Below, piece by piece: positions 21,701-24,700 of a stretch of 64,000 bases of DNA. The notes under the pieces were generated by a model, which was not told the DNA's origin, did no database searches, and was given only the letters and a program-made list of their open reading frames with translations. This DNA comes from Epinephelus fuscoguttatus. Its lineage: Eukaryota > Chordata > Actinopteri > Perciformes > Serranidae. Each line of letters opens with the position of its first letter. The first letter of the stretch is position 1. The DNA is taken from the NCBI RefSeq assembly GCF_011397635.1, contig NC_064761.1, positions 26,887,643 through 26,951,642 of the forward strand, given 5' to 3'. A program made the position numbers and the translations under genes.

Positions 21701-24700
21701 GTCACCGCTCAGGCCTTCCTGCAGGAGACCACCGTCATGACGTGAGTCTGAAGATTTCCTCGGTTTTAATGTGTTATTGTCAAAACACTTTGACCAGCTG
21801 TTTATTCATTATTACTAAACCCAGCTTTTAGTGAGCTTGCTTGATTAAAAAAAATTAATTCTTTTTGGCTTATTGTGCAAGTGATCATATTGTTTTGAAT
21901 GAAATGTATCAAACTTTATTCCTGTTGTCAGTGTTGTCAGTGTTTTCAATGTGGATTCACTCCTTCCAGGAAGCTCCAGCATAAAAACCTGGTGCGACTG
22001 TTGGGGGTCATTCTTCACAAAGGGCTTCATATTGTCACAGAGCTCATGACGAAGGTACAGTGAACACATCATCTATCAGTGGTTATCAGTTGGAGGATAA
22101 CACATGATGAAAACAACAAGCAGTAACACGATAGAATAATCAAAATAGGTAAATAAATATTGAGCATAGATTGAAGTGGCCTTGTTACATCACAATGAAA
22201 CAGAAAATAAAATCACATATAGTAAATGACACACCACAGGTTTGTTCTATTTGACCAGAATTACCTCAGACGTCAAGATGCATCACTGGTGGTACATCTA
22301 CACCTAAACAACAGCAAGGGAGCCCTCTGTCTGAACAGAGAGCAGGAGTCTATAGCCAACTCCCTTATTAAAGGGAAATTTCGGTTTATTTCAACCCATC
22401 TCCTATCGTCCTAAATTTGTTTCAAATCACTAGTGACATAGAAATAATAGTTAGCATGTTAGCCGTTAGCCTGGATACAGCCGTAGTGTCAGACCTGTTA
22501 AAACGTAAGTGAACGGGCATACCTTCAAGTGCAAAGTTAGTCCACTAAACAAGCTGTTTCTCCACAAAGACCACCTCATATCGTTAGGATAAATGTCAGA
22601 GAACATATAGAAAACAACATGTAAACGTGTTGTCTTACCTTACCGGTGTGGTGCCATGTTTGTTGTTTACCATTTAGCTAAGGCTGCAACTGGTCCCATT
22701 CCTTGCAACAGAGGTATTCCTCTTCTGTGGGCATTGGGGTACAGCATTCACAGGTAACGTTACACCACCGATCTCCAGAGCTAAAGCCTTCCAGCAGCCA
22801 TTCCTCCTCTGTCATCCTCTAACGTTACCTGTTGTGCCTCTCTCTCTCCTCCTCTGTTCTTCAATTTCACGAAGCTCTTCGTCAGTGTATTCTGGCTCAA
22901 ATAAATAAGGGCGGCCATCGACTCTTGATGCGGAAAGCCTATATACTAACATTCCACATTTAGGTGGTCTTCAGAGTTGTTGTCTTACCTTACAGTGTGT
23001 TTACCATGTACCTCTGCTTCCCAAAGCACGGCCGAAATATCGCGAGAACAAGCAGCGATCTCAATCAAACCGTGTTTGAAATCTCGCGAGAATAAGCAAC
23101 AGCAGCTGCAAGGCAGAACCGGACAGTAGCCTCAAAAGTTCATTCATTTATTTTATGAAAGATTTATAGAATAATGGCTGACTTTTTGCCAGACTTTTTG
23201 GCAGAGTTTGATGGCCGCCCTTATTTATTTGAGCCAGAATACACTGACGAAGAGCTTCGTGAAATTGAAAAACAGAGGAGGAGAGAGAGAGGCACAACAG
23301 GTAACGTTAGAGGATGACAGAGGAGGAATGGCTGCTGGAAGGCTTTAGCTCTGGAGATTGGTGGTGTAACATTACCTGTGAATGCTGTACCCCAATGCCC
23401 ACAGAAGAGGAATACCTCTGTTGCAAGAAATGGGACCGGTTGCAGCCTCAGCTAAATGGTAAACAAACATGGCACCACACCGGTAAGGTAAGAAAATACG
23501 TTTACATGTCGTTTTCTATATGTTCTCTGACATTTATCCTAACAATATGAGGCGGTCTTTGTGGAGAAAAAGCTTGTTTAGTGGACTAACTTTGCACTTG
23601 AAGGGATGCCTGTTCACTTACATTTTAACAGGTCTGACGCTACAGCTGTATCTAGGCTAACGGCTAACATGCTAACTATTATTTCTATGTCACTAGTGAC
23701 TTGAAACAAATTTAGGACGATAGGAAACAGGTTGAAATAAACCGAAATTTCCCTTTAACTATTTGCCTCCAAGAACACTGTGATCATCTGCCGCTGGTTT
23801 ATTGGAGGTTCCTAGCAACAGTCGGAAGAAGATCAGGGATGCAGCCTTTGTCAGTTATGCCCCAACGCTATGGAACACACTACCTATAGATATCAGGGAA
23901 GCCAGCTCTAATTCACCACCAGCAGCTAGTGAGAAAAAGATGATATGGGGAGTTTACTAGGTTACAAAGGTTGTTTTCCTTTCACGCAATCTGGTCATCT
24001 CCTAGAGGACAGTCAGAGGGTTAGGGAGGCACACAGATAACTGCAGGTTTTTGTAGTTTTTAACGGAGTGAATGGCTTTGTGATTAATCTCCCTGGTTGT
24101 TTTTTCTCAGGCTAGTGTTCTTATTTATAATGTGTTTTATTGTGATTTTTGGTTTGGATGCAGCAGTTCCCTTGATCAAAGACAATTTTCTCTTATGGGA
24201 GACAATAAAAATAACCTAACCTTAAAGCCAAAAATCCAACTAATCACACCCTTGCTGCCACTGAGGCAGTGGTAAGACAGTAATGGCAATGCAGCTTTGA
24301 GGAGTCAGAGACAGCCGTCCTCTGCTCTTTAGTGATTAGGCCAACATTCAGAAGCTCACTGTGTTTGCTGGGTCTTGAGTACAGTTATATAGTGACTCTT
24401 TAAAAGTACTTAATAGCTTAGGTTATGAGGTTAACACATTTTCAAACCAAAAAAGACACTGCCTGCTTGTAGTTTGTCTCATAATGCTAACTAAGAAATG
24501 TTTTAATAAGACCTTATGAAAGTATTTTCTGATTATGTGCATCTGTGTTTATGTCGCAGGGAAACCTTGTCAACTTTCTGAGGACAAGAGGACGTTCAGT
24601 TTTAAACTCAGTTCAGCTGCTTCGCTTTGCTCTGTGAGTTCAAACTTCAAAGAGTAACTTGTCCTCTACGTGTGCAGAGTAGGACATTGCATGACAGCTG

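Follow-up and report, generated by a model that had tools for sequence, protein, structure and literature searches.

The stretch of DNA analysed here (called the window; 64,000 nucleotides of Epinephelus fuscoguttatus) contains at positions 22368-23758 a near-perfect palindrome that we assign, with a probability of about 0.86, to the multi-copy non-autonomous Kolobok transposons (Kol0-like), as a palindromic element derived from a KolX-only element of ~1.19 kb. Non-autonomous Kolobok elements carrying KolX are a known kind; the palindromic form is new. A self-inverted match placed the two arms at 22368-22919 and 23210-23758 (527 of 552 columns identical, 95.5%, with 3 gap columns) and the interval between them, which holds TATCGCGAGA and TCTCGCGAGA, at 290 bp. 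An inverted repeat of 550 bp far exceeds what chance would produce. The element ends read TTAA-AGGG...CCCT-TTAA and the termini of the family are TTAAAGGGAAATTTCGG. The features are given below with strand and the evidence used.

22368..23758, unstranded: whole palindromic element, non-autonomous, Kolobok-type (self-inverted match; multi-copy in the same genome)
22368..22371, unstranded: left-end TTAA (sequence; register in copies)
23755..23758, unstranded: right-end TTAA (sequence; register in copies)
22368..22679, + strand: outer left arm, corresponding to the left TIR of the precursor (precursor 1-318; blastn to precursor consensus, 91.9%)
22679..22919, - strand: second, inverted copy of the KolX segment that reads outward (precursor 760-528; precursor alignment; frames)
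22920..22977, unstranded: ~58-bp filler at the centre of the inverted duplication
22978..23173, + strand: inner TIR remnant and KolX upstream region of the precursor (palindromic consensus 617 onward corresponds to precursor 270 onward)
23038..23047, unstranded: BANP-like motif TATCGCGAGA (sequence; conservation tested)
23082..23091, unstranded: BANP motif TCTCGCGAGA (sequence; conservation tested)
23174..23317, + strand: 5' part of the KolX frame, from the ATG at 23174 and terminated by a stop (frames; homologues)
23314..23451, + strand: Cys-rich part of KolX, in a different frame (frames; alignment)
23450..23758, + strand: outer right arm, corresponding to the right TIR of the precursor (872-1189; precursor alignment)

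The filler has no match to the precursor consensus, and the match of the window to the precursor in the block of the inner TIR remnant starts at 22995. In the right arm the 111 bp between precursor positions 760 and 872 are deleted, and in the Cys-rich part the C-x-C-x2-C spacing is broken by 6 inserted bp, which read AACATT here and AACGTT in the consensus. Rfam at gathering thresholds and ARAGORN gave no matches. The earlier note, made from the letters of the window, had described arms of ~550 bp with TTAA at both ends and two motifs in the spacer, all of which were confirmed (the motifs are 34 bp apart, or 44 bp from start to start), and the palindrome recurs in the genome. It had also described outward-reading frames in each arm; these are present in both, but the left copy differs from the right one in beginning only at the residues DGRPYLF and in having neither the ancestral start codon nor the upstream region.

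A search of the 1.047-Gb genome (26 contigs) with the element yielded 1,881 first-look candidates, a number which is not a copy count because TIR-only relatives may be among them. Forty loci were scored and all were fetched; they are the best-scoring copies and not a random sample. Twenty-seven of them, on 16 contigs, are essentially full-length palindromic copies, and the partial copies L036-L048 were excluded from the palindromic consensus and the counts. The full copies match their consensus at 95.5-97.5% and have arm identities of 0.934-0.980, while their flanks are unrelated (for the left flanks, compared over 100 bp, ungapped identity averages 0.26). TTAA is exactly in register on both sides in 18/27 copies and inexact on one side in 9/27, in line with the mobile TTAA element that had been proposed. 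Arms of one copy are slightly more alike (0.958) than arms of different copies (left-right 0.949, left-left 0.954, right-right 0.945), and minor states common to both arms number 124 as compared to 81 +/- 8.7 in 2,000 permutations. Exchange between arms nevertheless appears modest, since masking of CpG-type columns leaves just 11 of 54 arms with their own partner as nearest arm, and a within-copy distance (0.031) near that between left arms (0.032). The KolX frame of the arms contains two 6-bp insertions of AACGTT type, one of them present in 19/27 left and 7/27 right arms, which are perhaps footprints of another transposon.

Kolobok transposons have TTAA target sites and 5'-RR...YY-3' termini, and the Kol0 lineage encodes the accessory protein KolX, from which the P2X7 ballast and NANOR are proposed to derive (Kojima & Bao 2022, PMC9587614). 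The element has the 4-bp TTAA target site, and its 5'-AG...CT-3' ends inside TTAA agree with the terminus rule. The "ballast" gene of the element is KolX. From the window alone the P2X7-type Cys-rich match that the earlier note had suggested is weak: a 76-residue spliced model and an 81-residue variant reached E=0.013 and E=0.0032 against PF20478 (P2RX7_C), both below the curated cut-off, and the Cys-rich frame of the left arm reached E=0.29. The match becomes firm through P0022 (Entelurus aequoreus, 236 aa), to which the 76-residue model is 51% identical and which matches PF20478 at 7e-14; P0026 (Phoxinus phoxinus) matches Pfam P2RX7_C at 1.2e-16. No DDD/E transposase was recognised in the element and no partner was identified in the portion of the genome examined, where L117 plus L106, considered as a transposase partner, contain short frames only; the Kolobok assignment thus rests on TTAA, termini and KolX. 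Compared to a Kol0 Kolobok such as Kolobok-1_XT (PMC9587614), the element shares TTAA sites, RR...YY termini and a KolX frame of the P2X7 ballast family, but it is transposase-less, has only the N-terminal part of KolX in broken form and is a near-perfect palindrome.

When three frames and two models were scanned against Pfam, P2RX7_C was the only family that appeared; there was no P2X channel domain. The conserved arrangement of seven or eight cysteines in three clusters is not preserved in the window: the first cluster has a 2-residue insertion and is followed by one CC, and the later cysteines of P0022 and P0026 have no counterpart in the element. The likeness to the C-terminal ballast of P2X7 and to NANOR (Rump et al. 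2020, PMC7016195) consists of a ballast-type first Cys cluster, by way of KolX; in contrast to these, the element is without P2X channel and C-terminal Cys clusters and is part of mobile DNA. A PDB sequence search with the 76-residue model gave no P2X7 match and nine weak matches to other proteins; with P0022, P2X7 chains appeared only at E 0.7-0.87. A protein search with the 106-residue read-through product gave 20 matches, three from the carp Cirrhinus mrigala, eight labelled Vibrio and nine without a name. The eight Vibrio-labelled proteins (P0001, P0004, P0008, P0010-P0014) come from short contigs and match the fish-type element, P0001 sharing 88-99% identity with frames from six loci in the genome studied; they are likely fish DNA contamination of bacterial assemblies. 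Scans of viral and of bacterial/archaeal contigs for KolX or the TIR, from which near records may be omitted, found no relative.

The origin of the palindrome was traced with the full KolX protein P0022 as query, which gave 5,063 first-look candidates, of which 150 were scored. At least 52 of the matches listed (counted by eye) cover exactly residues 24-123 and are mostly stop-free. Twenty-six loci of this type, several of them incomplete copies, were fetched as precursor set. They represent a TTAA element of ~1.19 kb (consensus 1,189 bp) that contains TIRs of 345 bp (99.7% identical in the consensus), the KolX upstream region and a 138-codon KolX N-terminal frame, and no transposase. The palindromic consensus is composed of precursor 1-318, inverted 760-528, ~58 bp filler, 270-760 and 872-1189. 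This ~1.19-kb element (L079 and relatives) shares the TIRs, the upstream region and the KolX segment with the palindrome at 84-93% over the aligned blocks; unlike the palindrome it retains the 111 bp, has an intact frame in 14/26 fetched copies, is inverted only in its 345-bp TIRs and has no inverted KolX copy. By alignment, two changes thus separate the palindromic element from its ~1.19-kb ancestor: a deletion of 111 bp and an inverted duplication.

One junction (318/872 joined to 760) is common to both arms, which indicates that the 111-bp deletion most likely came first and the inverted duplication second. In the ~1.19-kb element a 111-bp stretch located between KolX frame and right TIR would accordingly have been deleted, after which the right arm would have been copied, inverted, onto the left end. 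Judged by the structure of the product, the copying most likely happened in the repair of an excision gap, by invasion of the wrong TIR and a final end joining that added the ~58 bp filler; replication template switching could give a similar product. A Kolobok transposase supplied in trans would then cut and paste the palindrome by its TIR ends at TTAA, and the KolX fragments would be hitch-hiking relics, presumably devoid of function.

KolX-only elements occur in a second family (L049-L078; 28 of 30 loci used, L076 and L078 being left out as the frame needed to orient them was not found). Its consensus, TTAAAGGATAACTTC..., describes an element of ~1.29 kb whose 325-bp TIRs are 99.1% identical in the consensus and whose KolX frame of 152 codons, intact in 14/28 copies, ends at the splice-donor-like AAGTAAGT. 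A TIR-only MITE of this family (TTAAAGGGTAACTTC...CCTTTAA; ~92-94% identical to its TIR consensus) is found in the window at 20405-20856, upstream of the palindrome and in the same kinase gene, and the inverted ends of a ~1.4-kb element at 9650-11071 are related to these TIR termini as well (...GGTTGAAACAAATCAAAATTTCCATTTAA). With the C-terminal exon of KolX as query, there were 101 first-look candidates and 60 matches; the 5,063 and the 101 are loose first-look counts from queries of different length. Six two-exon KolX loci (L105, L106, L107, L109, L111, L112) out of twelve fetched were checked. All six have an end of TTAAAGG type located upstream of KolX, which seems to place KolX immediately within one of the termini. 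L106 further contains, antisense to the two-exon KolX, an ORF (537-824, +; similar in L107) with a zinc-type C-x2-C ... C-x-H motif, which is a possible transposase fragment; it matched no Pfam family above cut-off and a homologue search was empty.

The two families suggest another explanation, namely that KolX-only elements are selfish cassettes which keep KolX for an action in cis or as a help to donors, and that the palindrome is a decayed offshoot of these. The families have different termini, and each is nonetheless built of TIR, KolX upstream region, KolX first exon and TIR without a transposase. KolX compared between the two family consensuses has a dN/dS of 0.14 over 91 codons, imprecise because dS is about 1.4, and was thus probably under selection in some source lineage; that selection can however have acted on autonomous sources. 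Among the copies of a family, substitutions are about evenly spread over the codon positions. Counted for positions 1/2/3 with CpG-, TpG- and CpA-type sites excluded, they amount to 20/20/20 of 2197/2476/2293 in the precursor copies and 66/60/56 of 2508/2791/2537 in the second family, two sets retrieved by protein score and hence biased to intact frames. For the palindromic copies the KolX 5' part gives 35/31/14 of 1109/1301/1006, the Cys-rich part 26/20/10 of 483/480/644. No third-position excess, the sign of purifying selection on KolX, was seen among copies of any of the three groups, and we consider the cassette explanation unlikely.

TTAA target sites are common to Kolobok and piggyBac, and a few piggyBac families encode a protein like the C-terminal part of KolX (PMC9587614), which raises the question whether the element is a piggyBac-type TTAA MITE. 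The two superfamilies are separated by the RR...YY termini (PMC9587614), and the element has AG...CT and not the other termini expected of piggyBac. In addition, the piggyBac versions are described in PMC9587614 as lacking most conserved cysteines, whereas relatives of the element keep the first Cys cluster. We therefore regard a piggyBac origin as very unlikely and retain the Kolobok assignment.

The earlier note had read the element as a captured or evolved zinc-binding ballast gene of two exons with its own bidirectional BANP promoter, expressed from both arms. The intron supposed for this gene (23301-23356, 56 bp) was rejected: in the intact precursors (14/26) the frame runs uninterrupted across it (...GGMAA[A/G]RLR[S/N]SGDWWC...), and 4/27 palindromic copies (L012, L023, L027, L032) likewise read through. 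As the frame of the relatives is continuous at this point, the GT-AG pair in the window joins two pieces of one frame broken by decay. The KolX frame of the window is shifted and truncated and the later Cys clusters are absent, which argues against a working zinc-binding product; the KolX fragment of the palindrome is probably non-working.

CGCG-type motifs are described as BANP sites. The outward frames of both arms with TCTCGCGAGA between them would fit a bidirectional promoter, and motifs recur upstream of the KolX ATG in other families: TCTCGCGAGA at 113 bp in the second-family consensus, and CGCGAGA motifs at 90 and 123 bp in the precursor consensus, which rests on 16-18 of 26 copies there. 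The chance of such an upstream motif is about 4e-4 per 200 bp under a Markov model, and its presence would fit a KolX promoter site of ancestral origin. Among the palindromic copies, 14/27 keep at least one perfect TCTCGCGAGA and 19/27 a T[AC]TCGCGAGA. The motif CpGs nevertheless give no sign of protection as BANP sites and are kept no better than others: retention in the palindromic copies is 0.74 at the motifs and 0.735 at the other 52 CpGs, and in the precursors it ranges from 0.61 to 0.89 for the four motif CpGs upstream of KolX, is 0.54 and 0.35 for a further two in the end of the frame and averages 0.80 for 46 others. The motif is also absent in the six two-exon KolX loci checked. With no excess in motif retention and a left arm lacking ATG and upstream region, the idea that the palindrome lets both arms be transcribed is not supported, and a captured or newly evolved gene is at odds with the literature, where KolX already figures as an accessory gene of the Kol0 Kolobok lineage (PMC9587614). 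Taken with the intron missing from intact relatives and the broken frame without visible purifying selection, these points make an expressed bidirectional gene highly improbable. A segmental inverted duplication at the locus or an assembly artefact, to be thought of since long palindromes can be assembly errors, is refuted by the same palindrome at 27 places with unrelated flanks.

The palindromic Kolobok element looks intronic, within a + strand tyrosine kinase gene that is presumably matk: an exon-like piece at 16201-16614 (+) encodes an SH2 domain (PF00017, 7.5e-18), and kinase-like peptides were recognised by eye near 20.2, 24.8, 25.4 and 29.6 kb (+). Its position between such exon-like pieces makes read-through transcription likely. 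Elsewhere in the window, a frame at 25830-26276 (+) resembles a LINE-type reverse-transcriptase ORF, presumably its 3' end, and a homeobox gene exon with an OAR motif (53970-54467, +; PF03826, 7e-10) presumably belongs to Rx/Rax.

One RNA strand of the element has a predicted hairpin energy of -1076 kcal/mol, and the mirror arms would fold a read-through transcript into a hairpin of ~550 bp. In maize, Mu killer, an inverted duplication of a transposon gene and TIR, can form a long hairpin RNA and is described as silencing MuDR (PMC3440606). The palindrome resembles it in the inverted duplication of transposon gene and TIR and in the capacity to form a long hairpin; unlike Mu killer as described there, it is multi-copy and at most a putative silencer. 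By analogy, the palindrome might act as a self-spreading silencer, in which read-through or BANP-driven transcripts would fold into ~550-bp hairpins over the KolX exon and the TIRs, small RNAs derived from these would be directed against KolX-bearing Koloboks, and the transposase of the latter would mobilise the element. We consider such a role improbable.

The palindrome documents TIR expansion in steps and is a natural locus for a long hairpin. On the spread of KolX pieces we found little in the literature, KolX being treated together with Kolobok in PMC9587614; here the KolX first exon with its upstream region is present in two transposase-less families of one genome. If spliced into host exons, KolX cassettes would make a fusion of P2X7 type easier to picture, and the silencer, if true, would be an animal transposon derivative policing its own parent family.
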